A stretch of 64,000 nucleotides of DNA from the NCBI GenBank assembly GCA_026874595.1, contig CM049306.1:9879019-9943018 (forward strand). Reading direction: 5' to 3'. Every line of letters begins with the position of its first letter. Position 1 is the first letter of the stretch. Under the pieces are notes generated by a model. It searched no databases, was not told where the DNA came from, and saw nothing but the letters and a program-made list of their open reading frames with translations. Origin of the DNA: Sipunculus nudus (taxonomy: Eukaryota; Annelida; Sipuncula; Golfingiida; Sipunculidae). This document shows, piece after piece, positions 1,066-60,633 of the stretch. The position numbers and the translations under genes were made by a program.

Positions 1066-3524
1066 TTAGCGAATCTGTGAGCTTACGCGATGGTGCGGCG
1101 TCATCTGTCGTGCGTCGTCTGTCGTGCTTCGTGCGTCATCTGTACGTTAACCATAGCTATCTCATAAACTGCAGGAGCTAGCATCACCAAATTTTTTGCA
1201 AATAATCAGTCATCCAAAAACTATATCGGATTTTGTTTATTTTTTTTCTAACTGCATTTTCTTAGATTTTATAGGGAAAAAGCTAAAAAAGCTTTAAAAA
1301 TCTTCTTCTCTGTCCAGCCAAATTGTCCAATATTTCACAGAAATGATCCCTGGAACAATCTTTCTCAAGTTTGTTCGAATACTTTAAGTTTGTTGATTTT
1401 TGGCCGAGTTACAGGAAGTTGAACTTTGTTAACTGTGCAAAAAAGCATATTAAAATTTAAATCTCAGAAACAGCTGTAGCTATCATCACCAAATTTTATG
1501 CCAATGTTGGTCACATAGGTCATATCTGAAATTGAAATATTGGTGGCGCCAGCTGCATCGGCCTTTTTTGTACGGGGTCGTCAGTGCCTGTATCACACTG
1601 AGGGCTACAAAAAACTTCTTTTCTGAAACCATATGGCCAAAATGTTTAATATTGCACAGAAATGATCCCAGGGTAGTGCTTTCTGAAGTTTGTTCAAATG
1701 GTCTGTTTTCAGTGACTTGGCTAAGTTATGGGAAGCTGAATTTAGCCATATGCCATAACAGCCCATTTTAGCTTAGTGGCTACAAAGATCTTCTTCTCAA
1801 AAACCACTGGGCCAAATTCTTAAATCTCACATGTTAATTATCCTCAGATGTTGATAATTCAAGTTTGTTCAAATAGTTTTGGTTCAGTGCTTTTTGGCTG
1901 AGTTACGGGAAGCTGAACTTAGCCAGTTTGCTGTATCGTCCTATATGAGTTATAAACCTGCGAAACATTTTTCGACTGATGCCACTGAAGCCAGTTTGTT
2001 AAATATTTTACAAGAATAATTCCTACAATAATTCTCATAATAATTGTCATTAAATGGTTCCACATGAATGATTTTTGGCTGAATTATGGAGATTGAATTG
2101 AGTCATTTTACCATATATGTTAGCTGTGGGATGCTATTACATCTAGCCCGGCACCAGTTTATCAGCATCTATTACATCATGCCACTAGACATTTAGATTT
2201 CAGGTTATCTTTGGTTAATATTGACAAGAAAGTTTTTTTAAAAGCTTTTAAAAAATTTAGATTTATGATTTAAGTTATTCATCATACCAGGCAATGTTAC
2301 AGTCATGGATATTCAGCTCTCTGTGGCTATATAAAGACAACTGTACATTGATTATAAATTATTGGTATCCCTACTCAACTTAATTCAAGAATTAGCCATC
2401 AATGAGATATATCTGTATTTTAATTTTGTATTCAGTATGCGTCCGTAATAATTTTACATATATTCCTGATATCCTTTTTATAAAAAGTCAGCTGAAAAGC
2501 ATTTTGTATTGGTTATAAATAATAAAGTTATTTCAAGTAGGGACCACTTTTGTGTTCAGATGGCAGAACTTGGTTTACCATTGGAAGATTGCCAGTGCCT
2601 TGATGTTGGCCATTAGCCAAGATGATGTTGGCTCTATAAATAGTTTTTGCACAGTGCCTGGATTGGAAGAAGTGCAGCCAGGTATAGGTAAAGAGTTCAC
2701 TCAGTGCAGTAGCTGCATTCTATTTATAGCTTTGGCAGACTGCTCACTGCATCATATTTGGCACCAAAGTTCAGCCTGAATCTATTTATAGCTTTGGCAG
2801 ACTGCTAACTGTGTCAGATTATGCAACAGGTCAAGAGTTCACTCAGTGCAGCCAGGGACAGGTCAAAAGTTCACTCAGTCTAGCCAGGTGCAGGTCAAGA
2901 GTTCACTCAGTGCAGTAGCTTGAGGCAGCAATTTGTCACAGGTCACTCGGGGGCAACAGCCTTACTCACCTAAGCCTTGTCAGCCTAGTGCATCAAACTC
3001 TGGGGAAGTTTGATGTATTGGACTGATATTTTGACCTGTCTATGCGTCTTTGATGGTATTCTCATTTACAAGACATGTGGTGCCACGTACATTGACTTTT
3101 GCAAAGTGTATGTGCCTGCTTATTTCTACAGAGGAATTTGATATATCAGTCTAAAATTGGGCATATTTATACATATCAAATAGCTTTGTTGTATACAAGA
3201 CTGTCGGTGCCACCTACAAAAATTTTTGCACAATGTCTGTCCCTGCTTATTTCTCAGGAGGGGTTTGATATATCAGTCTGAAAATTGGCATATTTGTATA
3301 TCTCTGATAGCTTCGAAGTATACAAGACTGGTAGTACAATTGTTTTTGTGTTGTGTGCACCCATGCCAGGATTTAAGCAGTGATGTTTGTGTAATTGTTT
3401 CTTATGCAAAATGTTTAGTACTTGCATTATTCATATACATGAAAAGTAATGGTCCAGCATTGAAGCATTATACCTGGTGTATTTCCCGATGCACAGGTTC
3501 GCATTAGGCCTCTAGGCCTTGTTT
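1066..3524 (+). mobile_element. Family D Helitron-like repeat, copy D1
   Basis: The 5' part carries degenerate GTCGTGCGTCGTCTGTCGTG words followed by a segment that recurs in copy D2 at 39962 (ACGTTAACCA, AGCTATCTCA, GCATCACCAA in the same order). The 3' end is TTCGCATTAGGCC followed by a hairpin (AGGCC, loop TCTA, GGCCT at 3506-3519) and CTTGTTT (3518-3524). The interior holds several roughly 130-190 base degenerate repeats, including an obvious pair at about 3094-3225 and 3226-3340, and short repeats of GTTCACTCAGTGCAG at 2690-2920. There is no transposase or helicase frame, so the element is non-autonomous. The 5' boundary is approximate. Confidence 0.55.
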
Positions 3525-3526
3525 GT

Positions 3527-3745
3527 TTCACATATGTATTATATAGGTGGTTAAGAATCCCCCTATGATTTTTTAATCAAAATTTCAAAGGTCAAGGTCA
3601 GAGGTTCCCATTGTTTATGCACAATTTGAGTTTAAGTTTTTTTGGTTAAGCTTATTGCTCCATTGCTTATAAAGATATTTCAGTTATGCTCAGTACTCTG
3701 ATGACCATTGACAAATACCCAGCACAGCTGTTTAAAAATTTCCTA
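3527..3745 (+). repeat. Family F interspersed repeat, second copy
   Basis: This matches the 500-745 segment in order and orientation, with CACATATG, TCAAGGTCA, ATAAAGATATTTCAGTT and CCAGCAC as shared words. It lies between the end of D1 and the poly-C start of E1. It is non-coding and its class is unknown. Confidence 0.5.
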
Positions 3746-3749
3746 ATAT

Positions 3750-4413: not shown

Positions 4414-4486
4414 ATCTGTTTTTTGCGCTGGAAAAACATAGCCATTCTAGTTGAACATAACAAATGCGCCTTGTTCTCATGTTTCA

Positions 4487-7246
4487 TTGTATTCGCCGAA
4501 ACAAAGTTTTGCTGATACTATGTTTTTGACCGGGTTCTGCGGCCGCCACATTCATTTCCAGAGAACTCCTCTGTGAACTTCTACTTAACCAATTGGCATT
4601 GACCTCTAACCTTTCCTCTCTGCCCAGTGTCCATTTGTGCGTCTGTTTCCACATATAAACCCACATATCTGGGGAACCGTTTGACTGATCAGAAAATTTT
4701 TTAGCTCAGCTGACTATAAGTCATCTGAGCTATAGTCATGGTCCATTGTCAATCATCAGTCCGTCTGTCCATCCGTCTGTCTGTCCGGATGTCCGTCCAT
4801 AAGACTGGCACGTTTCTACACCATTGGACCTACGAATCTGAAATTCACCATACAGTTAGATGGCCCCAAAATTTCCTACCATGCCGAAAATGGGGTCAAT
4901 AGGACTTTGTTCCTTCGAGATATTAAGGAAAAACCTCAATTTTTTATTAGAAATCTATTTTCACACTTCAGGACTGCCTAATATCAAAACCACTCATCTG
5001 GTTTTCTTCATATTTACCATAAATATTCCTCTATATAGTTCCTATGTACATGCCAGAAATTAAGTCAGTGTTATTCAGTTTAAAAAAGTTAAGGGCGCAA
5101 ACATAATGAACTTTGTAAAAAAATCAGGAAAGATATTTGGTCACTTAAGACCAAAAGTGTTAAAGGTAGGGACTTTTTTTTCAGTAATACAACTTTAATT
5201 AATCAAAATTAAATTGTATACCCAAAATTAGATCAAAATCTTTTAAATTTCTTAAAATATTAGCAAAAATAAAAATTGGTACCTTAAATTTTGCCCAACT
5301 TTGGCCACGGCATGTTTTTTTTCTGTAAGTACTGTGGATTTAATTTTCACAGCATGTACATAAAAGGATTTAATCTGTTAAAATCTGAAATTTGAAAATA
5401 AAAGCTGCAAAATTAGGCTAGTTATTTAATTTTTTTGGAGGCTCTTGTTGTATTCCCTTACATTGTCAAGCAGTCCACTTTGGTGACTGTAGGTCATTCA
5501 GTGCAGCTCTCTATGCTCCCCAGGCTGTTGGCATAATGTTATGCAATCCCATCACTAGGGCAAGCCCTCTCTCCACTGAGTTGAGCTTGATCAGGCTGTC
5601 TGCAGTTAATACCATACCACAGGGAGCCTTTTTCTCTGGCAACCCCCCCCCCCCCCCCCCACCCCATTCTGTTGACAGACCTGTACTATGAACTAGATGA
5701 ATCTTAAAATTAACATTTTTTTCAGCAACGAGCGGTAACAACAGAGACCCCTCCCCCCACCCACCCCTTCAATACACAGGACTAATAATAAGATTAATCT
5801 TATAATTTTAATGTTAAATAAATTCTTTTTGATGAGACTTGGACAATTTTGATTTTTTTCAAGTAAAAAATTTCAGGAATTTAATCCTAATATTCAAATG
5901 TGATAAAATATTACGATCTAATGTAGGTGCTAACTGACAAAATTTAAGAAGATATAAAAACTTTGTAGCATTTCATTCATATCTCTTAAAGTATGGGGCC
6001 TAGGTGTGAATAACACTGTTTACTTAGGATTAAAATTGGGAATATTGGTCAAACTTTGTGGGATTACTTTTTAACTCATATGGCCATATATTTAACTTTT
6101 GAAAACTTAATTACCTTCACACTTTATTTGTTTATGAAATGTTACTTTTATATAACACTTACCGTACGCCTATTTGTTCCCTTGGTGCATCACTAAATGG
6201 TTTAGCTCATGTCCAGTATTCTATAATTTACAGAGTTTCATTTTAGCAGGGCCATTTTCTCATAGCTTTTCTAATGATAATATACATGAAAAACCAAAAG
6301 AAATAAAAATATTTTGCAGTTACTAATCCAATATTCAGCTGAGCGATGTGACCCATGGGTTCCTTGTTTGTACAAATGTAGCTTTATAACATACACAAAA
6401 AATGGCAAAACCATGTTTGCACAGTGTCCATCTGTTCATCTGCCTTGGGTAAAAATCACTCATATCTCTGCAGTGGTTTGACTAATTCACCTGAAATTTG
6501 GCATGCGTATACATTCTGGATAGCTTTTTTGATTTTATGACAGGTTGCGCCAAATACATTCACGTTCACGCTGCAGACATCAATGCTTATATCTCCTGAC
6601 TGGTTTGATGTATCTTCCTGAAAATTTGCTTGTGTATAGATCTCACATAGCTCTTTATCATACACAAAACTGGTGGGGCCACCTGCAACCATTTTTGCAC
6701 AGCGTCTGTCTGTTTGTCTGCCGTGGGCAAAAATCACTCATATTTCTGTAGTGGTTTGACTTATTTGCCTAAAATTTTGCATGTTTATACATCTTGGATA
6801 GCTTTCTTGATTTTTTTGGCAGGTGGCACCACCTACATTTATGTTAATGCTGCAGACATTCAGGCTTATATCTCAGGATTGGTTGGACATATCCCCCTGA
6901 AATTTTGCATGTGTATAGATCTCACATAGCTCTTAATCATAAACAAAACTAGTGGTGCCATAAGTCCTTCTGTTTGTCTGCTGTGGGATAAAATCACTCA
7001 TATACATGTTGTGTTTTGACTTTTCTGCCTAAAATCTTGCATATGTATACAACTTGGACAGCTTTCTGGATTTTGTGGTATCTGGCGCAACCTACATACA
7101 CATTTCAGCTGCAGACATCCATGCTAATATGCAACACACCTTACTCTTATTTCCCCTTGCCACTCAATCCATGCCTCACTTCACCCGTTCCACTCTGATT
7201 TTGGCGGATACACATAGTCGCTTGTTGACTATCCGTATTCTTGTTT
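4487..7246 (+). mobile_element. Family A Helitron-like repeat, copy A1, split by a nested element
   Basis: The 5' end TTGTATTCGCC with its hairpin partner (CAAAGTTTTGCTGATAC) matches the other A copies. The 3' end has TTTTGGCGGATAC (7199-7211), a weak ATAGTCG/GACTAT hairpin and CTTGTTT (7240-7246). Bases about 4701-6369 are a complete family B element inserted inside it. Removing the insert rejoins the A sequence in the AAATTTTT/GTACAAATGTAG segment, which is continuous in copy A5. The interior carries roughly 280-bp units with ATCACTCATATCTC and GGTTTGACT. It is non-coding. Confidence 0.7.
4701..6369 (+). mobile_element. Family B Helitron-like repeat, copy B1, nested in A1
   Basis: The 5' end is TTAGCTCAGCTGAC with the fold-back partner CTGAGCT at 4725-4731. 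Next comes a CCGTCTGTCC-rich stretch, then a body shared with B3 (CATACAGTTAGATG, CTACCATGCC). The 3' end is CAGCTGAGC (6336-6344), the palindrome ACCCATGGGT (6351-6360) and CTTGTTT. A run of 18 C lies at 5643-5660. It is non-coding. Its boundaries are among the best defined in the window because it interrupts A1. Confidence 0.7.
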
Positions 7247-10848: not shown

Positions 10849-11903
10849 GTAAGTCACTAAATAATTAGAAACAAAGGTGATTATTAGAAACATTTCTGCA
10901 TAGATCTTGATGACTGTTGACGAAAGATCTCAAGAAAATACCATAATGTTGATCCTTAAATCTGTGGACCGATTAAACATTAAAAATTCATTAATGTATT
11001 AATAATGTTGACTTAAAAAGTAAGAATTCAGAAATTTCCTAAATACTTAGAATTAAGATCTATGCTAATTTATTAAAACTCAAAATCTTTAGATTCTCTA
11101 GTGGATTCTTAATTCATGAGAATACAACACTTATTAAACTTCAAGAATTAGTAAAATTGTGTTTAGAGATCAAATTCTAAAACACTATTAGAATTCTTAA
11201 ATCCATGAATTAAGAAACACAAAATGTTCAGATATCATGGATCCTCTTAAAATTCAGAAATGTGAGAACATTGTATTGGATACTGAAAACCTGAGATTTT
11301 TAAGTTTCTTCAACATTAAAAAATCAGAATGATTTAATTGTAACAACACCTATGGACAGACTGAGGATTAGTAGATGCTGATAATTCAGAAATTTCACAA
11401 TTCTTATATTAACTTATTTTGAAAACCTTGTAAATTTGTGATTTGTTTGAATGCCAAGAATTAAAAAACCATGTGGTTAATTTAAAAAAAAACTGAGAAA
11501 CACTATGTTCATGGATTGAATAACACTGAACATTAAAATATTATTACAGAAATTTTGTAATCTACAGTGATTAAAATTTACAATGAATTTGTGGATTTCT
11601 AGTGATTGAGAATTCAAAATCTGGTTAAATACAACATCTGCTGACAAGCGCAAAAAAATTAGTTCTCAGATCTGTTGGCAGATGGCAGCACCCATCAGGA
11701 TCCCCAATTTGTTAGAAATATTTTATACACAAACTTTCATATGATTCTCTTTTCTTATCAGATTAAGTAAGGCTATAAGAACAAATTGCTAGAAAAACTC
11801 TCCTGTGTTTTGTATTTGTTTATGGTTTTGCTTATTATAGTTCAGTCAGACTGTGTGTGGGGTGTCTTGGTGCTGATAGAGTGCACTTTTCATGTTTTAC
11901 CAG
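10849..11903. other. Intron with AATTC/TTAAG-word-rich stretch
   Basis: Bases about 10920-11640 are unusually dense in short inverse words such as AGAATTC, TTCTTAA, GAATTAAG and AAATTCAG. They give an irregular self-complementary texture but no clear unit length. The intron ends TTTTACCAG. An in-frame open stretch upstream of the acceptor (11786 onward) is intron read-through and is not called as coding. Confidence 0.5.
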
Positions 11904-12005
11904 GTTATACTCTTGGCATTCCTGACACTGTGATGGGCCTGACATTCCTGGCAGCAGGAGTCAGCGTTCCAGATGCTGTTGCCAGTCTCATTGTAGTTAG
12001 AGAAG
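11904..12005 (+). CDS. SLC24 exchanger exon (alpha-2 repeat, first half)
   Basis: A 102-base exon, acceptor TTTTACCAG, donor GAAG/GTATG, phase 1 at both ends. It encodes [18 protein letters not shown] followed by [16 protein letters not shown]. This is the first helix of the alpha-2 repeat, which lines the ion pathway. The aspartate of VPD corresponds to the acidic cation-coordinating residue of the family (Asp548 in human NCKX2). The position before the serine is valine here, where most family members have threonine (GTSxPD). Confidence 0.96.
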
Positions 12006-13677
12006 GTATGAAATCAGATACATTTTCTATAGTTCAGTATTACCTATATACAAAATGTGCATGTTATACAAGTACGTAGTAATTGTTTATCTTAAGTTTT
12101 ACCTTACATTTTGTCTGTTTGTTACCAGTTTCACTCACTGATCACAAGAAATAAATATTCTTCATGCTGTGTCCACAAGTTAATTGTTCTGTTTTTGACC
12201 ATTCCAAATACACAACTGTCACTGACACCACAATTAAAGAAAACGTGGCCAGGGACCTGCAAAGTACATATACTGCAAAGTCCTCATTAACTCCACAGTT
12301 TGAACACTTAAGATACATTCACAGAGTTCACAATCTTCAAAATTATGATAAATTAAACCCTGTTAAAGTTCTACTGATATGATACAGCAAAGAAATATTA
12401 GTATTGGCTGTTCCAGAAATGTCAAATTATGTCTTCTCTATGTTAAAGGACAAGTGCTGCCATCTAGTGGCTATGTCACATACTAATAGGATTTAAAATG
12501 ATCCAACTTTCTCATCACTTAATGAAACCATCTGTAAACTTGAAAAATTTACAATACTAATGGCTAAAATGTCTGCCTGATAATAATCAGAAATAAAACA
12601 TGTATAACAGACGCAAAAACATATAGACTGGCCAGCTGGCAATTTGTACAAGAGTTGTTGGCAGGCCAAATGTGTTTGTATGGCTAAATTCTTAGAACAC
12701 TTGCTGGTAAATTTTATAAATAATGTATGGTTCGTTCATCATCGCAGATTACTGACTGGTATCATCCAGACTATCAGAACAGGAAGTGCACCCCACCACT
12801 GAACTTGGGGTCTTTTCCCTTGACGTCATAAGTTATAGAGGCCACTCCCAGAATTTCATTCCACTATCTGCGGGAGTCACACAGTCCTTGACTCTAGCTG
12901 TTGTTCTTCTGTTGCCATCTCCATGACCAAGACTTTAACTGGGGAATGTCTTTCACACAGACTTGTGGGGGCACCAAAGATTGTCCTTGTCAATGCAACG
13001 TTGTCAACCAGCCACGAGTATTTGGTTTTTAGCTAACAACAACCAATCTTAACATATATTTGCAAGCTGCCATTCTTTCCTCAATCACCACCATTTTACA
13101 TGGCAAATCTAGCTAAAATAAATGAATGTCACGCAAAGAAACTTACAGAAACTGGATGTAGACACAATACAAGTGTTCTGCCAAATTACATCGGGCTAGG
13201 TGCCCTTCCACATTGGTAAAACCTCACAGCCAAATCAAAGCCAATCATGTGCATTCTTCCTGTCTTTATCAGCTCACATGTGCAATTTGTCACTTAAAGA
13301 TCGCAACCACAATGCAAATTCTGATAGACTTGTACCTGCTATATTCTAAACCTAATAGACTTGTACCTGCTATATTATAAGCCTAAGAGACTTATACCTG
13401 CCACATACTCTCATTAAGCAATTATCAGGAAATCTCAGGGATGAAATTATCCTTCCAAATATCTCACATTGTATATTCTGCTGTAGGGTTGGTGCAGCTC
13501 TCTTGACTTAGATAATGGAAACTTTTATGTCCCAGTGGTGTGCTAATAACAATGTCTACAATATTCTTTTGCTGATTGACACTTGATTTTCATTAAAAAA
13601 ATAAAAAGCTATCCTCAATCAGTACTTATATAAAATCTGCCATTTATTGTGAGTTTATTTTTAAATTTGTTCATTTA
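12006..13677. other. Intron sequence
   Basis: Mostly unique intron. A 30-base word (AGACTTGTACCTGCTATATT and variants) is repeated three times at about 13326-13400. Nothing coding is supported. Confidence 0.5.
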
Positions 13678-15404
13678 TTGTATCCGCCAAAACGAAGTTT
13701 TGCGGATACTATGTTTTTGACCGGGTTCCGCCGCCGCCGCGTTTGTTTCCGGAGAACTCCTCTGAGACTACTGGACAGATTTTTCCGAAACTTACACAAA
13801 TTATCAGGTCACATGTGAACTGGTGCCTTACCAAGTGACCTTGACCTCTGACCTTTCGTCTCTGCCCAGCATCCGTTTGTGCGTGTGTTTCCACACATAA
13901 ACCCATATATCTCGGGAACCGTTTGACCGATCCGAAAAAAAATTTACACAAATGTAGCCCTGGGATAGCTTTATAACATACACAACAAAAGGTGGCGCCA
14001 CCTGAAACCATGTTTGCACAGTGTCCATCTGTTCATCTGCCTGGGGTTAAAATCACTCATATCTCTGCAGTGGTTTGACTAATTCACATAAAATTCGGCA
14101 TGTGTATACATCCTAGATAGCTCTCTCGATTTTATGACAGGTGGCGCCACCTACATTCACGTTAACGCTCCACACATAAACCCTTATATCTCGGGAACCG
14201 TTTGACCGATCTGGAAAAATTTTTTACACAAATGTAGCCCTGGGAATGCTTTATAACATACACAACAAAAGGTGGCGCCACCTGCAACCATGTTTGCACA
14301 GTGTCCATTTGTTCATCTGCCTGGGGTTAAAATCACTCATATCTCTGCAGTGGTTTGACTAATTCACCTAAAAATCGGCATGCGTATACATCCTAGATAG
14401 CTTTCTCGATTTTATGACAGGTGGCGCCACCTACATTCACGTTAACGCTCCACACATAAACCCATATATCTCGGGAACCGGTTGACCGATCCGGAAAAAT
14501 TTTTTACACAAATGTAGCCCTGGGATAGCTTTATAACATACACAACAAAAGGTGGCGCCACCTGCAACCATGTTTGGACAGTGTCCATCTGTTCATCTGC
14601 CTGGGGTTAAAATCACTCATATCTCTTTAGTGGTTTGACTAATTCACCTAAAATTCGGCATGCGTATACATCTTAGATAGCTTTCTCGATTTTATGACAG
14701 GTGGCGCCACCTACATTCACGTTAACGCTGCAGACATCCAAGCTCATATCTCGGGAACCGTTTGACCAATCAGGAAAAAAAAATTACACAAATGTAGCCC
14801 TTGGATAGCTTTATAACATTTACAAAAATGGTGGCGTCACCTGCAGCCATTTTTACACAGCGTCCATCTGTTTGTCTGCCTTTGGTTAAAATCACTCATA
14901 TCCCTGCAGTGGTTTGACCAAATTACCTGAAATTCAGCATGCTTATACATCCCGCATAGCTTTCTTGATTTTATGACAGGTGGTGCCACCTACATTCACA
15001 TTCATGCTGTAGACATCCATGCTTATATCTCCGGACTCATTCAACCAATCAGGAAAATTTTTTTACTCAAATGAAGCCCTTGGATAGCTTTAAAAAATGT
15101 TGGCGCAACCTGCAGCCATTTTTGCACAGCATCCATCTGTTTGTCTGCTGTGGGATAAAATCACTCATATCTCTACAGTGGTTTGACTTTTCCACATCAA
15201 ATTTTGCTTGTGTATATATCTTGGATAGTTTCAAATAACAGGTGGCGCCACCTACAATCATGTTTATGTGTCAGAGATCCATTCTAATATTTAACACATG
15301 TAACTCTATATCCCCTTGCCACTCAATCCATGCCTTACTTCACCCGTCCTTCTCTGATTTTGGCGGATACACGTAGTCGCTTGTCGACTACCCGTATTCT
15401 AGTT
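13678..15404 (+). mobile_element. Family A Helitron-like repeat, complete copy A2
   Basis: This is the best-preserved copy. The 5' GTATCCGCCAAAA (13680-13692) is followed by its own complement GTTTTGCGGATAC, forming a hairpin. Near the 3' end TTTTGGCGGATAC (15358-15370) is the exact 13-bp inverse. It is followed by a 7-bp hairpin (GTAGTCG 15373-15379, CGACTAC 15385-15391), seven bases and CTAGTT (15399-15404). The body has four to five tandem units of about 280 bp (starts near 13891, 14170, 14450, 14730), most with two GGTGGCGCCACC palindromes. No replicase or transposase frame exists. The layout fits non-autonomous Helentron-associated elements. Confidence 0.75.
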
Positions 15405-15417: not shown

Positions 15418-16135
15418 TTTAACTCAGCTGACTGTAAGTCATCTGAGCATTAGCAATCCCCCTTTGTCCTCTGGCCGTGTGGCTGTCCAGTTGTTTTGCC
15501 ATCCTGCATTTACAGGGCACAAATCATAACCATACAATCTAGAAAATTCTTACTCTACATCCTGGGAGATCCTTGGCAGATAGATCTCTTTGGAAACCTG
15601 AAATTAGGTCATGGTGACCAATATTCTGCGAACTACAGGTTGAAAACATGATTTTGAGCTGCGAGGACGATAAAACGTGCATGAAGGCCCTCTTGAAAAA
15701 AAAAGTAAAAATTCTTGCGATGTGCTGTTCAGTGGCATGGCGCAAGAGAAAAGACCGGATATCCCAAGTGGAAACCCGACTACGAATTCTGCACATGCAT
15801 AGTGGAGAACTAACAATGTGTGATAAATTGATAACCAATCAGATTCAGTTATCTCTCCACCTTCTGTATATGATAGATCATTAAATATACAAGTTATACA
15901 TGAGAAACCTTGAATGCATGTGTGGTGCTAAATAAATACTTTAATGGTCCTTCGACCCTGAAAGGTCATTTGAGCACAAAGATAGCCAGGAGGAACAAAA
16001 ATTGAATCCATTAGGCCCAGAATCTTCTAACATAATATTCATTTAGATCCTGTGCAACTGTCCTTTGAAATATGATATTAGGTCACTGTGACTTATTATC
16101 TGTGACATATATGAAAAAAAAGATGTTACAAGAGC
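15418..16135 (+). mobile_element. Family B repeat, truncated copy B2
   Basis: It begins with CTCAGCTGACTGTAAGTC and the fold-back partner ATCTGAGC, then GGGCACAAATCATAACCA as in copy B5. The middle (about 15640-15890) is not similar to B5 and may be another insertion. B-like sequence resumes near 15960-16130 (AGAATCTTCTAACAT, ATTAGGTCACTGTGAC). The 3' terminus is missing. It starts 13 bases after the end of A2. Confidence 0.5.
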
Positions 16136-16564: not shown

Positions 16565-16657
16565 GTAAGTCATATCAAATATAACATCACTTAACACATC
16601 TGTCTGAAATTATATGACTGGAGACATTAAAATTGCTATCATATGTCTGTTACCTAA
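16565..16657. other. Intron start between donor and minisatellite
   Basis: Short unique stretch after the GTAAGT donor. The tandem array starts about 95 bases into the intron. Confidence 0.6.
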
Positions 16658-42798: not shown

Positions 42799-44260
42799 TT
42801 TGTATCCATCAAAACAAAGTTTTGCGGATACTATGTGTTTGACTGAGTTCCGCCGCCGCGGCGTTTGTTTCCAGAGAACTCCTCTGAGACTACTGAACAG
42901 ATTTTTCTGAAACTTGCACCAATTATCAGGTCACATGTGAACTGGTGCCTTACCAATTGGCGTTTACCTCTGACCTTTCCTCTCTGCCCAGTGTCCATTT
43001 GTGCATCTGTTTCCACACATAAACCCACATATCTTGGCAACTGTTTGACCGATCAGGAAAAAAAAATTGTACAAATGTAGCCCTTGGATAGCTTTATAAC
43101 ATACATAAAAGAATGGTGATGCCACCTTCAACCATGTTTGCACAGTGTCCATCTGTTCGTCTGCCTTGGGTTAAAATCACTCATATCTCTGCAGTGGTTT
43201 GACTAATTCACCTGAAATTCGGCATGCGTATTCATCCTGAATAGCTTATTTGATTTTATGACAGGTGGCGCCACCTACATTCAGGTTAATGCTTCAGACA
43301 TCCAAGCTCATATCTCGGGAACTTTTTGACAGATTGGGCCAAAATTTTGCATGTGTATAGATCTCACATAGCTCTTTATCATACTCAAAATTGGTGGCGC
43401 TACCTGCAGCCATTTTTGCACAGCATCCGTCTGTTTGTCTGCCGTGGGATAAAATCACTCATAACTTGGCAGTGGTTTGACATATCTGCCTAAAATTTTG
43501 CAGGTGTATACATCATGGACAGCTCTCTTGATTTTATGACAGGTGGCACCACCTACATTCTAATTTACGCTACAGACATCCAAGCTCATATCTCGGGAAC
43601 CTTTTGACCAATTGGGCCAAAATTTTTCGTGCGTATAGATCTCACATATCTCTTTATCATATGCAAAACTGGTGGCGCCATCTGCAACCATTTTTGCACA
43701 GCGTCCATCTGTTCGTTTGCCATGGGCTAAAATCACTCATATCTTGGCAGTGGTTTGACATATCTGCCTAAAATTTTGTAGGTTTATACATCCTGGACAG
43801 CTCTCTTGATTTTATGATAGGTGGTGCCACCTACATTCTAGTTTAACCTGTAGACATCCAAGCTCATATCTAGGGAACCATTTGACAGATTGGGCCAAAA
43901 TTTTGCATGTGTATAGATCTCACATAGCTCTTTATCATATACAAAACTGGTGGTGCCACCTGCAACCATTTTTGCACAGTGTCCATCTGTTTGTCTGCCA
44001 TGGGCTAAAATCACTAATATACATGTAGTGGTTTGACTTATCTGCCTTAAATTTTGCATATGTATACAACTTAGACAGCTTTCTGGATTTTGTGGTAGGT
44101 GGCGCAACCTACATACACATTTGGGCTGCAGACATCCATGTTAATATGCAACACTTCACTCTATTTCCTCTTGCCACTCAATCCATGCCTCACTTCACCT
44201 GTTCCACTCTGATTTTAGAGGAAACACGTAGTCATTTGACGACTACCCATATTCTAGTTT
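42799..44260 (+). mobile_element. Family A Helitron-like repeat, copy A5
   Basis: The 5' end is TTGTATCCATCAAAAC with partner GTTTTGCGGATAC. The 3' end has a diverged subterminal repeat (GATTTTAGAGGAAAC), the hairpin GTAGTC/GACTAC and CTAGTTT (44254-44260). The body has five family A units. GGTGGCGCCACC is at 43264, with decayed versions elsewhere. It is non-coding. Confidence 0.7.
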
Positions 44261-47200: not shown

Positions 47201-47309
47201 GAGGGGATAAAAGTGAATAATTTTTGTCAGTTCTTCACATCCTTCATTTTTCCTCTTCTGGCTGCATGTGATGTAAAAGCTGGAAATCTAGTTTGTGCAT
47301 TTTCTTCAT
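44261..47309. other. Intron sequence with palindrome-flanking direct repeat
   Basis: About 3 kb of AT-rich intron with no supported coding. Bases 47272-47301 are the left copy of a 30-bp direct repeat that recurs at 51965-51994 on the other side of the large inverted repeat. Confidence 0.5.
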
Positions 47310-50300
47310 TAGGCCATGGGCTAGTGGGGGTCATAGTGCACCCCCCTTGTGATTTACTTTAATGGGTATCTTCATGTAGCCCTAGGTCTAATAAGTCAGA
47401 AAATTGATGTTGCCAGCAAAAAAACTGGGCTGGAAGATACCCCCCATGGACTTTTTAACCACGCCTACTTTTACAGCTGGAGGCATATAATTAGGGGTAT
47501 GGAAAATTCAAACAGCCCTAACTTTGCAACTCTTCACCAAAATATTTCAAATGACCACTTAAAATGTTTGTCTTGTCAAATAATTTCAAGTCCATGCAAA
47601 TGATATGCAAATTTATTCTGTAAAAAAGGTCACCAGAGGTCAAAAGGTCATAAACTTTGACCTTTACCAATAATTTCTCGCATAATCAGGTTTTATTTAT
47701 CGCCGAGACCATATTACTTTTATTTTTATTTTAATTAATTAAAATGAACTTTTACTTGTGCTTTTCAATACCTGAAGTAAAAAAAAATGAAAAGAAGTAG
47801 TGATTACCCCATGGTATGTGAGATATTTCTGCACTTTTACATACTCTTTGTACATTTTGCTGAATGTGTCGAATATTAGTAAGGCAAAATCTAACATGTG
47901 GTACTTTGGAATATTTCACTGAATCTTTAAAAATGACAATAAAGGATGATATTTAAGTTCATCTATAAAATGAAACATCAAATCATGCAAATATTTTCAT
48001 CGAACAGTTTGTTGAAGTCAAAAGTAAACAAAGGTTGACTTTACCAACACAATAGCTGTTTGTTACACATTGTCCTTGTAAAGCGTGAAATCTTTATATT
48101 GAAAGAAATATATGTTACTCTCTCAATTTACTCATTTCCAGTAAACATTTATCCTAAATCTTATCGGTTTGTATCTAATTTCATGACCTATATATATGTT
48201 CTTAGATAGTTGTCACTGGTTCATTGATCTCTGTTAACAGCAAACCCCTAATTTTAATTTAAATCTCCCCTCACTACGGGCCTCATTTTATAAAATATCA
48301 GGGGGAAAATGGGCCCCTTCAAAGGTTTAGTGTTAACTTAAATCCTGGATTTCTAAAGATCTGAGCTTGTATGATGATGATCAAGGTATCCTAGTTATGA
48401 ACTGATCTGAGATTTTATTCTGGCTGATTTGACCTTGAAGATCCAGGTGAAGGTCACAAGTTTTCAAGCACCTCAAGGTACGCAATTAAAACAATAGTGT
48501 TCAAATTTGAGGGAAATATGTGATACTTTAAAAGATAAGGGGTTCCCATTTTTTTATTTCATCCAATTTACCTTGATGATGAAGGTCAAGGTTAACATAT
48601 TTTAAACCGGTCCGAGATATTGGTAGAGACATTTCACAAGTTTAATTTCATGAAAATATATCAAGTGGTTCAAAAGTTATAGCGTTGAAAATAATTTCTA
48701 TTTTGGCTGATTTTTTCGTGAATATACAGGTCAAGGTCACCAGTTTTCGAGCTCCTCAAGGGACTTGATTAAAACACTAGTGTTTTAAATTTGAGGAAAA
48801 AAATGCGCTACTTCAAAAGTAACAGGGTTCACAAATAATTCTGTTTTGGCCTATTTGACCATGATGTTGTAGGTCAATGTCATAAGTTTTTTAACATGTC
48901 CGAGATATTTGTAGAGACATTTCACGAGTTGAATTCAATGAAAATATGTTGGGTGGTTCAAAAGTTATAATCTTCACATATACTTTCTGTTCTGATTGAT
49001 TTGACCTTGAAGATCTAGGTAAAAGTCACCAGTTTTTTAACTCCTTAAAAAACTTGATTTTAACAATTAGTGTTTCAAATTTGAGGGGAAAATATGGGAC
49101 ACTTCAAAAGTTGTGGGGTTCACCAAAAATCCTATTTCGACCTATTTGATCTTGATGACTGTCAAGGTCACCAGTTTTCAAACTCGTCCGAGATTTTGGT
49201 AGAAACAATTTAAATTTAAATTTCATGAAAAATTGTTGAGTCTTTCAAAAGTTATCGTGTTCACATGATATTACAGAGACGATGCTGAGTACGACGCTGA
49301 TGACGACAGACCAAACACTGTATGTCTCCCCCATGGGAGGGAAGACTTAATTACATATGATTAATATAATTTCTCTCCCGAATATATAACCGATGTCATC
49401 ATAGTATGATAATTGTGATAATTGATTAAAAATTGCAATTTATTAATGGAGCAATCTTTATATTTTTATCCTTTATTGGCCTGCCTCTGTGCATTTTGGC
49501 GGACTTTGGCAGTCTAGCCTATCTTTTTTATGGACCTCTGTCCATAGTGAGTAGATAGTTAAATAAGACAGTCAGATAGACCTTCACAGAGATTGTCAAG
49601 TAGTTCCTGATATCTGACTTGATTCTGACTGGCTCTGGTGGCAAACCATTCCCACTGCCTGGCTAAAACTCTAGCTGTACATCTGTCATGGTCTTTCTGA
49701 CTGACCAGCTCTCCAACGGCTAGCCTGTTTGATATATTTTTTATTTACCTGGTGTGTTGTCTAAAAGACAGGCTCTCTGACTAAGTTCCCTGAAGGTCCA
49801 TTTGCCTGGTAAGTTAGCTAGTTCTCTGGAAGGATATACATGTATACCTGATAGTCAGACTGATGACTATAGCTCTTGCTCTAGCATTTATGTATTGTTG
49901 AACAAAGGAGGCGCCGTCTTGTGGATTAGAAGTCTTGTAGTTAGAAAATAACTGACCACTTGTCAACAAGATATGTTGGTAGAAAGACAGTCAGGCTCCT
50001 GGAATACCAGAGTGTTAGCTTATTAATCAAACAGACTGAACACCGTAGAGCTATAGTCATTAATCTTTCAGGCAACTATCCTCCTAGAGACATAGCTAAG
50101 CCTAACTAATCAGGCATTGGGGCTACAGGGAACTCGGTCAGGAAGCTGGTTTAGTAGGCAAAACACCGGATAAATAATAAATATGTCAAACAGGCTGGTT
50201 GTTAGAGAGCTAGTCAGTCACAAAGACGATGACAGATGACCAGCTAGAGATATAGCTAGGTAGTGGGAATGGTTTACTACCACAGCTAGTCAGGATCAAG

Positions 50301-51937
50301 TCAGATATCAGCAACTGCCTGACAAGCTCTGTGAAAAAGGTCTACTGTGTTATCTAAATATTTACTGACTATCTGTGGTAATCTGACTGACAACCCAAAT
50401 TGCAGTGTTTCTGTATTTTTAATGGACTATGCAGTTGCTCAAATACTAGTTAGACAAACTGCCATTCACTCAAACAGAAAATAAAATGTACCGCAAGAGT
50501 CATTTGATCAGAGAGTCAACATGAGAAACAGGTGTATCGGTTACATAATGAGTTAGCCTGTCAGAGAGGTTTTTCTCAGTCAAGATGATATTCAGGTAGA
50601 CAGATAGACATGACAGGCAAACGAATAGGCTTACAGACATTCATAAGAAAAAAAAAAAAGACTGACAGAGGTCCATAAATAAAAAAGATAATAAATAATA
50701 AATAAACTAGACTGCCAAAGTCCTCCAAAATGCACGGAGGCAGGCATTAATGATAAGTATAAAATAAATATAAAGATAGCTCCATTAATAAAATTGCAAT
50801 TTTTTAATCAATTATCACAAAAAATATACTATGACGACATCAGTAATATATCCGGGAGATATATAATCTTAATCATATGGAATTAATTAGAGAATTTATT
50901 ATTAATTGTTATATGAAATGGATATATGTGATATAAGCGTACAATGCAAAAAAAAATTTAAAAAATTGCTTGATTCCAGTCAAATTAAAATTCGGGTTCT
51001 GCTGTAAACAGAGATCAATAAACCAGTGACAACTATCTAAGAACATATATAACTTTCATGAGATAAGATACAAATCGGTAAGAATTAGGATGAATGTTTA
51101 CTGGAAATGTGTTAATTGAAAGATAGAAAGTAACAAACATAAGTTTCAATATTAAGATTTTATGGCACAATTTACAACGACCATGGGTAACAAACAGCTA
51201 TGGTGTTGGTAAGGTCAACCTTTGTTTACTTTTGCCTTCAACAAACTGTTCGATGAAAATATTTGCATAATTTGATGTTTCGTTTTATAGATGAACTCTG
51301 ATATCATCCTTTGTGGTCATTTGCAAAGATTCAATGAAAGATTCCAAAGTACCACTTGTTAAAGTTTGCCTTACTCCTATTAAACACATTCCGCAATACA
51401 CAAAAAGAGTATGTGAAAGTACAGAAATATCTCACATACCGCGAGGTAATTACTAAACTTCAAATTGTTTTACTTCAGGTATTAAAAAGCTCCAGTAGAC
51501 CTTCATTAAATTAATTTTCATTAAAAATGAAGTTATATGGTCTTGGCAATAAATAAAACCTGATAATGCGAGAAATTATAGGTAAAGGTCAAAGTTTGTG
51601 ACCTTTTGACCTCTGGTGACCTTTTTACAGAATAAATTCGCATATCATTTGCATGGACTTGTAGATCTTGACAAGGCAAACATTTTAAGTGGTCATTTGA
51701 AATATTTTGGTGAAGAGTTGCAAAGTTAGGGCTGTTTGAATTTTCCATACCCCTAATTATATGCCTCCAGCTGTAAAAGTAGGCGTGGTTAAAAAGTCCA
51801 TGGGGGGTATCTTCCAGCCCAGTTTTTTTGCTGGCAACATCAATTTTCTGACTTATTAGACCTAGGGCTACATGAAGATACCCATTAAAGTAAATCACAA
51901 GGGGGGTGCACTATGACCCCCACTAGCCCATGGCCTA
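47310..51937. repeat. 4.6-kb imperfect inverted repeat (foldback-type element)
   Basis: The left end TAGGCCATGGGCTAGTGGGG and the right end CCCCACTAGCCCATGGCCTA are exact inverses. Arms of roughly 1.5-1.9 kb follow, meeting at a centre near 49885-50040. The outer 330 bases are almost identical; identity falls toward the centre. The left arm carries an extra 1.1-kb family E element (about 48262-49346) that the right arm lacks. The inner 1.1 kb is rich in CTGACTG/CAGTCAG-type words. Within the outer arms an open frame of about 77 codons (starting MIYFNGYLHV, at 47349 on + and ending at 51898 on -) is nearly the same in both arms. It matches no family I know, and the overall base identity explains it. 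This could be a foldback DNA transposon or a palindromic duplication. Confidence 0.85.
48262..49346 (+). mobile_element. Family E repeat, copy E2, within the left arm of the inverted repeat
   Basis: The start (CTCCCCTCACTACGGGCC) and end (GTATGTCTCCCCCATGGG, then AGGGAAGAC) are related to E1. The interior has about three units of roughly 290 bases with GACCTTGA, AGGTCAAGGTCACCAG, TTTCACAAGTT and GGTTCAAAAGTTATA. Each unit holds oppositely facing TCAAGGTCA-type words. It is absent at the equivalent point of the right arm (near 50880-50990), so it arrived after the arms formed. Confidence 0.55.
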
Positions 51938-53830
51938 CATGTGCTTGGTTTCTCCTTTTCTGATTGTAAAAGCTTGAAATCTAGTTTGTGCATTCCAGTT
52001 CGAGTAATGGTATTTTAAGTGCCATGTCTGAAGGCTCAGCATTTATAAAACTGTTACGTGAAGTGATTGTGGAGAGCTGACTCTTGGAAATGTCACCGCT
52101 CAACAACGGCACACAAGAAAAGAGCAGTGCCCTGACAGGGTGATTCGTTACTCTTACAAAGTCTCTTGAACTGTTATGTTAAATTACCTTTAAAACACAT
52201 CTAGGGTCTTTATTTGGATGGCCTAAGTTTATTATTCGTAGTCAGGTAGACAAAAGAAATATTTAAAGACATCATTTTACTTTTATGTTTTATCTATGTG
52301 TTTTAGGGTGTTTTTATGCTTTTTGACAATTGTCTTCAAACTTTCTACTATTTTTATCCTGTGAAAGTTTCATCCTGGAAAAAATGGTATTTCCTAAATG
52401 ACAGCAGATTTTTAATAAGGAAATACCATGTTTGGTATTTTTTTTTAAATTTTACCCTTTTGATGATTTTATTATCTTTTCGACACACTTAACATATAAT
52501 GAACACTTGTTAAACAAAATGACATTGTAGTTCACTTGAACCTTATCAGTTATACAAATTAAATGTAGAATCCTGTTACAATTAAAGGAACGGGAACATC
52601 TCTTTTTTAAAAAGAGTTGAACTGAGACTACTTTGTAATTGGTTTTAGAAGACCATTCCAATAACTTTAGCATCAAAGTTAAATGCCTTAACAACCAGGC
52701 AAAATCCTACCCCCTGATACACAGGGTATGAGTCAATACAGGGGATAGGGGTATCCAATATTAGAAAGGTGATATGGTTAATGTTAATAAAAAAAAGTCC
52801 CAACTTTGATAACCCTCCCACACCTGCGACTCATCCCCCCCTTGAAGATAAATGGATGCCGCTGCTTATACATCCTGGTACTTCCTCCTGGTGAGGAAAC
52901 GCATTTGATTTCTAATGACCAGTTACCGCGGTCACTCTACACCTAGAAGTCTGCCCTGCCACCAGTTATCACTGTCACTCTACACCAAGAAGTCTGCCCT
53001 GCCCTGACACATAATATGTCACTTCCTGTTCATACCAGCTTATGGTCTTGCCTTCTCATGTAAAAGTGACCAGTGCACAATGTTATTTTTGTCATAATGA
53101 TAGGGTTTTTTGGAGCTCCTTTCAAATGACAGATACCAGTACAAGAGATATACAGTACTGGAATATATGAAAAAAAATTAACCAGTTTAAATTATGTTAG
53201 CTTTAATATTTATGAACTTGGTGAGAGAAAGTGATGCTTTATTAGTGTTTCATAATTGTGACATGTTTGCTATGATCTCATCAAATTTTAGAAAATGACT
53301 TAGTAAATAAGAACTTGAGCCACACCTAGTACCTCACCACTGACACCATACCTGACTTGTGTTAAAAGCATCAGATTTAGTCAAATTTATGAAAAATTGT
53401 AGGATTTGAAAATGATCATGATAATGATATACACCTTTCTATATTTTATGACTTTTTATATATTTGTCATAAAATTCAGTGGCAGCACTGAAAATGGTTT
53501 TAATTCCAAAAGATCTTTGCACATGTGTGGAAACACCTTGGCCAACAAGCGCTGCTATCCATTCTGTCTACAGCATCAACCCTGCCCAACAGTCATTCAA
53601 GACTGCCATCTTGAAAATGTTCTATGGATGTTTAAAAGCATTAAGCATACTGAAAACATTTTGCAGAATTAGCTTTACTTCAGGTGGTACAGAAATGATT
53701 TGTGATTTATTGATGAACTGCACTGATTTCAACCTGAAGGTTATATCAATCTCAGGATTGGAAGTAGTAGAAAACTTGGTCCATTGTGGTCCGACAACCA
53801 CTAGCAGTCACCCCCCCCCCCCTCCCCCGC
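51938..53830. other. Intron sequence with a small tandem duplication
   Basis: The 30-bp direct repeat partner is at 51965-51994. A 43-bp unit (CACTCTACACCAAGAAGTCT) is duplicated at 52919-53003. Overlapping open frames at 53406-53856 (up to 125 codons) end in a proline run made by a 12-C tract (53811-53822). They show no recognised domain and are not called as a gene. Confidence 0.5.
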
Positions 53831-55389: not shown

Positions 55390-56170
55390 AGACTTTTTTT
55401 ACCTCGGCTGACTGTGTCTTCTGAATTATAGTCTTGAAAATGTTAGACCTATCAATCTCAAATTGACATACTGTTAGAATTCCCAAAGTTCTCCTACCAA
55501 ACCAAAAACCAAATCTTTGCAACTTCATACTTTTGAAAAATTAAGGAAAAGCCTCTATTTTCTGTGGAAAACCTATTGTTACACTTAAGGACTGCTTAAT
55601 ATTATAATCAGTCTTTGTCATCTTTAGCATAAATATTCATCTATATATTTCCTATATACATGCCAGAAATAAGGTCAATATAGCGTAATTTGTTTAAGTA
55701 ATATTACTTGGTCAGAAATCAGAAAAGATATACACTCACTTAACATGATAATTGTTGAAGCTAGAGACTTTTTTCCAAGGACAAAACTTTATTGAAGATT
55801 CAATTGAATATCAGGTATTAGATCAGAATTTTGTAATTTTATTTAAGTTATTAGAATAAATAAAAAAAACACTACTTTAAAGTTTGCCCAATTTTGAATA
55901 TGGCATACATTTTACCCTGTGAGCACTTGTTTTAATTTTCACAAGAATTACAAATAAGGATTTAATCTTTTAAATCAGATATTTAAAAAATAAAAGCTCA
56001 GAAATGGGGCTAGAAATTAAATTTATATTTGGAGGCTCTGTTGTATTAAATTACATTGTCAAGCTCCAGGTGGCCCACTTCTGGTCACTGGAGGTCATTT
56101 AATACAGTTCTGCCTGGGCAACCTGACTGCAGGTAATGCAACACTAGGAGACCCCTGCTGTCACAGCTGT
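55390..56170 (+). mobile_element. Decayed family B copy B4
   Basis: The order of words matches B1: CTCGGCTGACTGTGTC, ATACTGTTAGA, TCTCCTACCAA, GGAGGCTCTGTTGTATT, ACATTGTCAAGC, GGAGGTCATTTAATACAG. Identity is clearly lower than among B1, B3 and B5, so this is an older insertion. The 3' hairpin end is absent. Confidence 0.5.
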
Positions 56171-57983: not shown

Positions 57984-58145
57984 TCTGACTGGTAAAAACT
58001 GATGAAGATACATTGGATAAAACTCTGATGAAAGTGACTGGTTAAAACTGATGAAGATTAACTGGATAAACTATTATAAAAGTGACTGGTAAAAACTGAT
58101 GAAGATAAATTGTATAAACTCTCATGAAAGTGACTGGTTAAAGCT
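57984..58145 (+). repeat. 48-bp tandem repeat, just over three units
   Basis: Units begin GTGACTGGTAAAAACTGATG and are spaced 48-49 bases apart (57987, 58036, 58084, 58132). It lies about 540 bases upstream of the last exon's acceptor. Confidence 0.8.
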
Positions 58146-58682
58146 ACAATAAACAAGATTTATATAAATTAATGAAGAGAACTGATATGACACTGTGATC
58201 AAAAAGTACATGTAAATTTTTGCGAAGTTACTCTCTGAGTAAGACCTTGTAGCATCTCCCAGAATAGTGAACATGGGTGAACCAGTGCAGGGCCAGACGT
58301 TTTTATCAGGGAAAGTAAAAGCCTGTGTCAGACTGATGTTTCTTCGTGAAGATGACTTTGGGTGTGGTTTTGGATCTGAGGTCTGACCTTTTACTTGACT
58401 TTCTTTGAAGATAACTCACAGTTCATTCATGCGAGCACCACATGTGGAGAAGCTATAGTGCTCTTTGTTTGAACTCTGGCTTTGATTTTGTAATCATTGT
58501 CTCTAGAGGAAAGTCCATACTGTGATAAGCTGATTACTTTTCACAAAACTAAGTTTTACTGTTTGTCTACAGTTGTCAAAATATGTCACTGGATGAGAAT
58601 GAAGATGATAATGTGATAAAAATGATGATAATGTGATTAATGTCGACCAAAAATGTATTATCATTTTTTTCTGTTGTTACAG
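58146..58682. other. Intron end and acceptor
   Basis: Intron ending in ATCATTTTTTTCTGTTGTTA and CAG at 58680-58682, a strong pyrimidine tract and acceptor. An ATGATGATAATGTGAT direct repeat lies just upstream (about 58600-58640). Confidence 0.6.
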
Positions 58683-58882
58683 GTCTCACATACTCATCGC
58701 TGACTCTGTTGTCCACGGTGGTGATTCTGCTGGTGGCCACGCACCTTAACGGCTGGAAACTTAACAAGAAGTACGGCGTCATCCTCATGGTCGTCTATGT
58801 CATCTTTAATGTACTCACATCCCTATATGAACTCAATATCTTTGGAAAATTTCATCCACCAACATGTCCTGGTGAATATTAA
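58683..58882 (+). CDS. SLC24 exchanger last exon (final two helices and stop)
   Basis: It enters in phase 1 after TTGTTACAG and reads to a TAA at 58880-58882. It encodes a helix (about LTYSSLTLLSTVVILLVA), THLNGWKLNKKYGV, a last helix (about ILMVVYVIFNVLTSLYEL) and a short tail ending HPPTCPGEY. Two final helices and a short lumenal or extracellular tail are normal for NCKX proteins. NGWKLNKK and LYELNIFG resemble vertebrate NCKX5 as I remember it. The exon is markedly GC-richer than its surroundings. A 42-kb intron separates it from the previous exon, but phase and protein continuity (YSKG then LTYSS) support the join. Confidence 0.93.
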
Positions 58883-59066
58883 ACATAATAGCAATGTCAA
58901 ATATTTCTAATGTGAAAGGTGGCGTTTTGTTTATTCATAACCTCATTACTGGGCATGGTGTGTCAGAAAATACTTGAGTTTTAACAGGTGATACATCCAT
59001 ATTAGCTGTCAAAATATTGTCATTTTTGTTGCCCAAAAGCTTAATATCTATATCAATAAGTGGTTT
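58883..59066 (+). other. Probable 3' untranslated region (end not determined)
   Basis: This is sequence after the stop codon. No AATAAA was seen before the family B element starts. An ATTAAA overlaps the stop (58878-58883) but is too close to be a convincing signal for this mRNA. The 3' end of the transcript cannot be fixed from the sequence. Confidence 0.35.
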
Positions 59067-60633
59067 TTAGCTCAGCTGACAGTAAGTCATCTGAGCTGTA
59101 GCAATCACTCTTTGTCTGTCGTCCGTCCGGCTGTCTGTCCGTTAACAGGGCACAAATCGTAACCACTGGACCTAGAATCTTCTAACTTGACATCCAGAGA
59201 TGTCCATGAAAAATCTCCTTGGAAACCTCAAATTAGGTCTCTGTTAACCATATTCACCCAGCTATGAGGCTCCGAAGTAACCCCCAGAATAATGGAAAAT
59301 ATCATACAAAAGCTCAAGTATCTAAACAACTAATGCATTGATCACCATGATTCTTTGCAATGATATTGACCATGGAGTGTTTTATCAGTTTCTGCAGATT
59401 TGTGGCACCACCTGTATTTTTTTTTATTTTTACAATTTTTTTTCTCTATTTTTGAGACCTTTAAAGATGTGGTCATCTGTTAACAGGACATAAATTGTTA
59501 CTCTTTGTCTGTCGTCCGTCCGGCTGTCTGTCCGTTAACAGGGCACAAATCGTAACCACTGGACCAAGAATCTCCTAATTTGACATCCAGAGAGGTCCTT
59601 GAAAAATCTCATTAGAAACCTGAAATTAGGTCTCTGATACCCATATTCTTCCAGCTATGGGGCTGCGAAGTACGCCCCCCCCCTAGAATAATTGAAAATT
59701 TCATAGAAAAGCTCAAGTATCTGAACAACTAATGCATTGATCACCATGATTCTTTGCATGGAAATTGATCATGGAGTGTTTCATCAGGTTCTGCAGACAG
59801 GTGGCGCCACCTGTATTTTTTTAATGATTTTTTTTTTACTCTATTTTTGAGACCATCAAAGATGTGGTCATCTGTTAACTGGGCACAAATTGTTACTGCT
59901 GGACCTTGAATCTTCTATCTTGACATGCAAGGAGGCATTCTCTTTGGAAACCTCAAATTAGGTCTCTATTACCCAGAACCTCTGAGCTATGGGGAAAGAC
60001 CCCAAGAGTAATGGAAAAATGGAAACAAAAGCTCAAGAATCTGAACAACTAATGCATTGATCACCATGATTCTTTGCATAGATATTGATCAAGGATATGC
60101 GGTCATCTGTTAACAGGGCACAAATCATATTGACTAGACTTAGAATCTTTCAACTTGACATCCTTGAAGGTCCATGAAAAGTCTTCAAGGAAACCTGAAT
60201 TAGGTCTTTCTTACCCATACCATTTGAGCTATGGCGCTCAAAAGTGCCCTCAAAACAATTTAAAGTTTTAAACAAAAGTAGTGCACAAATCATAACCATT
60301 GGACCTAGAATCTTCCGATTTGACATCCAGGGAGATCCATAATAAGTCTCCTTGCAAACTTGAAATTATAGGTGTCTGTTACTCATATTTTTCAATTTAT
60401 GCGGCATGTTTGAAGACCCCAGAAATAATGCAAAAAACATACAAATTTCGAGAATCCTCAGGAATGGGTGAATGGATTGTCCTAAAATTTGCTGTGCTTA
60501 TGCGTCTTAATGAACTTAAGCTAACTTGCATGAATGATGGTGCCACCTCCATTATCTTAATTAGTTCCCTATGGAAGGACATATTGTCAACATGTCAGTC
60601 AGCTGAGCGTCATGACCCATGGGTCACTTGTTT
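59067..60633 (+). mobile_element. Family B Helitron-like repeat, complete copy B5
   Basis: The 5' GCTCAGCTGAC (59070-59080) with partner CTGAGCT, and the exact inverse GTCAGCTGAGC at 60598-60608, frame the element. The 3' end has the 14-bp palindrome TGACCCATGGGTCA (60613-60626) directly followed by CTTGTTT. The interior is five shortening units, each starting GGGCACAAATC (about 59150, 59537, 59880, 60113, 60283). At 59797-59814 lies an 18-bp perfect palindrome containing GGTGGCGCCACC. It is non-coding. Confidence 0.75.

Follow-up and report, generated by a model that had tools for sequence, protein, structure and literature searches.

The 64-kb stretch of Sipunculus nudus DNA analyzed here (C1:9879019–9943018; hereafter, the window) contains five repeat families, A, B, C, D, and G, which we identify, with a probability of roughly 0.93, as HINEs, i.e., non-autonomous Helentrons mobilized in trans by Helentron proteins that read the element ends by structure. 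The initial annotation had proposed that these families, unrelated in their interiors, share a structural code at the 3' end: a hairpin, then CTAG or CTTG, then T's. All five ends are present, with CTTG of G beginning at 38922. The family 3' ends were then searched in the 1.43-Gb genome, the best 40 candidates were scored per family, and 20 copies per family were fetched from the best 40 matches. The end of similarity coincides with CTAG or CTTG plus TT in 92 of the 100 loci (A, 18/20; B, 18/20; C, 20/20; D, 20/20; G, 16/20), although intact ends are favored in this count, since the copies were chosen from the best matches. Exact 3' modules are abundant, with 4288 occurrences for A (18-mer), 5536 for B (33-mer), 979 for C (39-mer), and 3625 for D (32-mer), against 0 for each of the reversed modules used as a control; genome-wide, the strand totals of these four modules are balanced. 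The sampled boundaries and the layout of the ends thus support a code common to the families in structure, not in sequence.

The terminal word by itself carries no signal: CTWGTTT occurs in the window at chance frequency (37 observed, 33.5 expected) and was rejected as a stand-alone signal. A structure-based profile, suggested earlier as a check, was run on the window. It requires T–T, an 11-mer with its complement (at most one mismatch) 150–3500 bp downstream, a hairpin stem of at least 5, and CTWGTT, and was compared with 60 dinucleotide shuffles, both strands. The full structure is found nine times (eight on the plus strand, one on the minus strand), whereas shuffles yield on average 1.85 (sd 1.29, largest 5); with exact 11-mers there are three matches vs. 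0.05 in shuffles. We judge that five of the nine matches pair true ends, namely, those of D, A, C, B, and the element at 4701–6368.

Subterminal inverted repeats (subTIRs) of 11–13 bp with a nearby 5' complement, previously noted in A, B, and C, are confirmed there, and the repeat itself, unlisted before, is also seen in D. The 5'/3' pairs are GTATCCGCCAAAA / TTTTGGCGGATAC in A, GCTCAGCTGAC / GTCAGCTGAGC in B, and AGCCCTCAGCC / GGCTGAGGGCT in C, all exact in the window copies; the pair of D, GCGAACCTGTG / CACAGGTTCGC, is perfect in genome copies and has one mismatch in the window copy. In G the repeat is weak (in L085, as read by eye, pairing extends to about 9 of 10 bases), and G is the weakest case among the five families. 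The 5' subTIR clearly pairs with the complement directly behind it in A (z = –6.4), B (–3.3), and C (–4.8). The 3' hairpins fold with z of –3.5 (A), –1.5 (B), –3.5 (C), –2.2 (D), and –3.3 (G); the hairpin of B, weakest by energy (22 of 200 shuffles are equally good), holds an exact 14-bp palindrome. Its core is GACCCATGGGTC followed by CTTG in B vs. GGCCCATGGGCC followed by CTAG in three B-type ends (L116, L117, L120), both arms having changed together; CTAG and CTTG therefore interchange among related ends. In long loci, 5' ends were located by motif in 7/8 (A), 5/8 (B), 6/8 (C), and 5/8 (D) cases, each after at least two T's; no 5' end motif was seen within the fetched stretch of the remaining ones. 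Some D elements (L068, L069, L072) have two 5' ends, as if by D-in-D insertion or end capture.

To characterize the target, we matched 30 flank joins, taken from 27 copies, against all sequence gathered. Three of them yield empty sites: for A of L008, TTAATTCACAGG is intact at window positions 10053–9973; for A of L010, the site is found at 35726–35814 and in other copies; for B of L028, it lies within a D element (1843–1752). A fourth site comes from the window itself, where element 4701–6368 interrupts a copy of A whose sibling reads AAAATTGTACAAATG at this place. At all four empty sites, the A or B-type element has entered at TT, and no duplication beyond TT is apparent. One more match, for C of L051, was rejected, being a head-to-tail pair of C copies, and the other 26 joins gave no match that passed. 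Hence, for A and B-type elements the shared flanking preference anticipated by the initial annotation holds as a TT target; T's at the ends are the evidence in the case of C, D, and G.

Coding Helentrons are present in the same genome. The Helitron_like_N domain has 143 matches among the best 150 of 195 candidates. The locus L108 contains a 2342-aa open frame that matches Helitron_like_N (5e–27), PIF1 (6.5e–23), and an endonuclease (4e–4, below the Pfam cut-off); its close protein kin L109 has a 2420-aa frame with Exo_endo_phos_2 (7e–8), and L105, a 2235-aa frame with an OTU protease and an endonuclease. Among seven 10-kb Rep loci, the element of L108 ends in the 3' module of B (97% over 36 bp), and L110 also has a B module (89%). 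The endonuclease of L109, used as a query, has at least 154 genome matches (best 150 of 5301 candidates), and for 20 of these, with identity from 97 to 38% and reaching at least residue 239 of the 251-residue query, 2 kb downstream were fetched. A B module is seen downstream on the same strand in 14 of the 20 loci (L113–L117, L120–L126, L128, L130), starting 188 to 1062 nt into the fetched piece, and only the last 30–38 bp of B are matched. Given 5536 exact modules genome-wide, about 0.04 per strand would be expected by chance in 22 kb, a figure that diverged modules would raise. In two further loci, L129 and L131 (38 and 39% identity), a D end and D interior sequence lie beside the endonuclease. 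As to the autonomous partner, a common one having been proposed earlier as support, coding relatives with the same 3' end exist for B and are suggested for D, whereas the loci inspected yielded none for A, C, or G.

A different lineage is represented by L105 and L106, copies of a Helentron-like element with shared sequence over more than 19 kb, whose reading frame appears to run against the element ends. Their 5' end beyond the frame reads GCTTGCCGGAAATC-TTC-GATTTCCGCAAGC; the sequence read stops short of the L105 element's own 3' end, but a copy abutting L105 ends in CATTTCCGGCAAGC-GCG-TGACC-TCT-GGTCA-TCTTGTT. This end has 1852 genome occurrences with at most two mismatches (reversed control, 0). 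The layout is the same but the subterminal repeat is another one, therefore, several Helentron lineages exist in the genome. On one strand, L105-lineage ends recur every ~2–7 kb (C1:105182946–105207133, C1:64761020–64777636, and others), which suggests head-to-tail arrays. The N-terminal coding parts contain tandem repeats within the open frames (loci L105–L109, L111), of ~69 bp in the L105 group and ~63 bp in L108 and L109; the N-termini of L108 and L109 match Herpes_teg_N, and that of L105 matches the OTU protease and, weakly, STPR repeats.

Several observations weigh against this identification or its extension to all families. Four of the nine matches of the structural scan (ends at 4447, 7240, and 44254, and the minus-strand one at 21827) are probably chance pairings, and the window copy of D has no 5' partner hairpin (z = +0.60). 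The other five Rep loci, L109 included, lack an end of any of the five families within their 10 kb; four more Rep loci have no known end downstream, nor a frame longer than 150 aa in the three frames read. Of the 20 endonuclease loci, L112, L118, L119, and L127 lack a recognized end within 2 kb; five of the 14 loci with a B module contain further B-like stretches (L115, L121, L123, L128, L130), and as in L128 such a stretch lies between two modules, the downstream module there may belong to a B copy. Similarly, the D match near the endonuclease includes 300–400 bp of D interior and so may reflect a D insertion, and an A end in L126 is part of an A copy. None of the coding elements among the loci inspected has A, C, or G ends. 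The 5' end of the autonomous B-type Helentron was sought upstream of the L108 and L110 elements and not found; a pair of B-type ends (5' and 3') in L134 was considered as belonging to an autonomous element and rejected, as it looks like a separate B copy.

Two other identities were considered. The families could be canonical Helitrons (Helitron1, with 5' TC, 3' CTRR, and insertion between A and T), which would agree with the HUH Rep and helicase domains in the genome, with the 3' hairpin, and with CTAG in A and C; however, CTTG in B, D, and G violates CTRR, A and B-type elements insert at TT, the subterminal repeats are on both ends, and the coding relatives have an endonuclease domain, so that this assignment is very improbable. 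Equally improbable is that these are unrelated MITE-like families of different transposase classes, with 3' ends alike by chance or due to a T-rich target preference: the chance frequency of CTWGTTT and the failure to find a coding partner for A, C, and G are what one would expect then, but the whole structure exceeds shuffles, empty sites show no duplication beyond TT, and 14 of 20 loci have a B end adjoining a Helentron coding region.

For non-autonomous Helentrons, the mobilizing proteins would combine an HUH Rep, a PIF1-type helicase, and a C-terminal AP-like endonuclease. Rep would nick at the T's of the 5' end, beside the hairpin of the subterminal repeat; one strand would be peeled off by the helicase; the 3' hairpin and the CTWG after it may serve as a stop mark; and the freed strand would be joined into a TT dinucleotide. 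We infer rolling-circle transposition from the protein domains alone, and nicking, a single-strand intermediate, and mobilization in trans from what is known of the superfamily. Each family probably follows a Helentron lineage with the same subterminal repeat, as shown for the B 3' end and suggested for D; since several lineages with different repeats coexist in the genome, this is the simplest reading. The single machinery initially proposed for all families is not supported: the B-type lineage (L108, L110, 14 of the 20 loci) and the different repeat of L105/L106 point to one superfamily instead. Likewise, the common layout stands, while the word "converge," used for it at first, is ill-suited, as this layout is that of the known Helentron terminus, and sequence-unrelated HINE families within a single bivalve genome have been published (PMC7492417). 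The features match those of published Helentrons and HINEs, hence, the families are new members of an already described kind.

The unexpected part, which is worth following, is the shared local orientation of the families. All family matches in the window, counted at E 1e–8 or better, are on the plus strand (five A, B and B-type elements or fragments, C, at least two D, and G). Orientation was then compared in the first 22–26 Mb of C1 (from 0.16 Mb), using lists of 100 A, 100 B, and 100 D elements together with 31 C elements, the first of 100 listed. For elements of different families, the strand is shared in 35/39 pairs at 2–10 kb, 79/90 at 10–30 kb, 87/111 at 30–60 kb, 93/140 at 60–100 kb, 190/341 at 100–200 kb, and 356/687 at 200–400 kb; i.e., agreement is seen in 166 of 201 pairs at 10–60 kb and fades by 100–200 kb. 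Within families, the respective values are 17/18, 35/42, 40/58, 36/53, 80/134, and 170/308. At 2–100 kb, 294 of the 380 between-family pairs are on the same strand vs. 195 (sd 10, largest 230) in 1000 within-family strand shuffles. With disjoint pairs (each element used once), 46/50 agree at 10–30 kb and 47/92 at 100–200 kb, and a bootstrap over 1-Mb blocks at 10–60 kb gives 0.826 (interval 0.737–0.892; 311 elements below 22.8 Mb).

Some observations speak against a general rule. A–A agreement at 2–100 kb is weak (30/52; within D it is 53/60); the blocks at 16 Mb (5/10) and 20 Mb (3/7) are weak as well; one L105-type array is opposite to its D neighbors; and another window repeat occurs in both orientations (47307–48260 and 50982–51941), an inverted pair, 89% alike, with no family given. 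In the first 20 Mb of C1, the L105 lineage is seen at only five places or arrays, of which three agree, one disagrees, and one has no neighbor within 100 kb. Nine between-family pairs lie within 2 kb of each other, all on the same strand; in five of these (C1:2423824, 7261351, 11203580, 13826160, 15459889) the 3' ends are 182–218 bp apart (A–B, A–D, A–D, D–B, D–B), which may reflect insertion of short elements into another element's T run.

The sole recognized gene of the window, a sodium/calcium exchanger with weak matches to solved structures (0.0025–0.004), is on the plus strand. A possible last exon at 58637–58879 is weak (E 0.026, below the cut-off), may belong to this gene, and had no match in a solved-structure search; should it and 11771–12076 form a single gene, the elements in between would be sense-oriented. 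With just one gene, transcription, replication, and selection are indistinguishable as causes of co-orientation. Tentatively, and at somewhat less than even odds, the single-stranded DNA into which the elements insert may be of one polarity, as dictated by transcription (the non-template strand) or by replication fork direction. Such a polarity would agree with the between-family agreement of disjoint pairs at 10–30 kb and its loss at 100–200 kb, and the bacterial IS200/IS605, HUH single-strand transposons, follow the direction of replication (PMC5371812); on the other hand, Drosophila INE-1 elements in introns are described in both orientations (PMC5624886), and flank composition, used as a proxy of transcription, gives no clear signal (upstream T–A skew 0.023, interval –0.007 to 0.053; the downstream flank, T-rich near the insertion, has 0.057, interval 0.020 to 0.096).

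Somewhat more doubtful is that insertion is unbiased and selection removes gene-antisense copies, which would introduce poly(A)-like signals or splice sites in greater number. The numbers of AATAAA/ATTAAA in six elements of the window (10 sense, 21 antisense) are in line with this, as are the weakest within-family agreement in A, with 0 and 0 such signals (30/52 vs. 53/60 in D), the plus-strand position of the window gene, shared with every family match, and a decay length that could be gene-sized; but D shows strong agreement despite 3 and 3 signals, and efficient selection would be needed across thousands of insertions. If polarity of the target is indeed the cause, thousands of unrelated HINE copies could, by their orientation, record as a fossil map the direction in which the DNA was transcribed or replicated, a suggestion that we regard as speculative to a similar degree. 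In the portions of the literature on element orientation available to us, we found no description of Helitrons or Helentrons sharing their orientation locally.

The elements of the window are listed in the table. The interior tandem repeats have units of 280 bp (A), 393 bp (B), 303 bp (C), and 127 bp (D), with none reported for G. The window also contains satellite-like arrays at 16657–19163 (36 bp × 68) and at 29576–31539 (35 bp × 57), the latter directly after a truncated A copy.

Table. Elements and coding sequence of the window (positions within the 64-kb window).
Feature	Position	Strand	Details
Family D HINE	1066–3524	+	5' subTIR 1069–1079; central 127-bp repeats 3067–3330; 3' subTIR 3492–3502; hairpin 3506–3519; CTTG 3518–3521
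Family A HINE, interrupted by nested element 4701–6368	4482–7245	+	3' end CTTG at 7240
HINE with B-type ends and other interior	4701–6368	+	subTIR at 4704 and 6334; CTTG 6363; at TT within A copy
Host coding frame, Na_Ca_ex domain	11771–12076	+	Pfam 2e–9
Family A HINE	13678–15404	+	5' subTIR 13680–13692; complement 13697–13709; 280-bp repeats 13890–15188; 3' subTIR 15358–15370; hairpin 15373–15391; CTAG 15399–15402
Family B 5' fragment	15418–15626	+	
Family C HINE	20478–21510	+	5' subTIR 20480–20490; complement 20495–20506; 303-bp repeats; 3' subTIR 21471–21481; hairpin 21486–21499; CTAG 21504–21507
Family A HINE without 3' part, then 35-bp satellite	28682–29566	+	
Relative of the interior of B-ended element 4701–6368	35419–36687	+	
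Lone family B type 3' end	37986–38019	+	read by eye
Family G element	38395–38928	+	hairpin GCACC/GGTGC, TCTTGTTT; 5' limit inferred from genome copies
Family D 5' part	39992–40526	+	
Family A copy	40887–41647	+	3' end 41642
Family A copy	42800–44259	+	3' end 44254
Relative of the interior of B-ended element 4701–6368	55540–56099	+	
Family B HINE	59066–60633	+	5' subTIR 59070–59080; complement 59086–59096; 393-bp repeats; 3' subTIR 60598–60608; palindrome 60613–60626; CTTG 60627–60630

With these families, a known superfamily gains further cases, which show that its ends require very little sequence: about 35 bp of the B 3' end are kept at 89–100% beside endonucleases that are only 45–88% identical to the query protein. 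To our knowledge, little is known about how Helitron-like elements in animals choose the target strand and are joined to it. If orientation tracks transcription or replication, HINE-rich genomes carry an answer about target-strand choice, and the local orientation agreement may be more useful than the added family members.

Compared, by anatomy and not by sequence, with published systems, the families most resemble HINE/DINE-1, the non-autonomous Helentrons of mites, Culex, and Drosophila (PMC4067079). The likeness includes subTIRs of 11–15 bp, a complement or palindrome at the 5' subTIR, the 3' palindrome, central tandem repeats, TT insertion, and a variable number of T's at the ends; the differences are CTAG or CTTG before the T run in the five families here, and the coding partner of A, C, and G, not found among the loci inspected. 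Several sequence-unrelated HINE families have been described in one oyster genome (PMC7492417), and the bivalve Cg_HINE/Pearl elements, by their description, share with those analyzed here an 11–12 bp subTIR with a complement, satellite-like repeat arrays, and the 3' palindrome; a GTCC-like microsatellite, as in Cg_HINE/Pearl, is seen by eye in B and C. Fungal Helitron2/FoHeli elements (PMC5148889) differ in target sites and are without the endonuclease domain, but they, too, have asymmetric terminal inverted repeats, with hairpins at one or both ends, and in some of them the coding region is reversed relative to the ends, as it appears to be in L105/L106.

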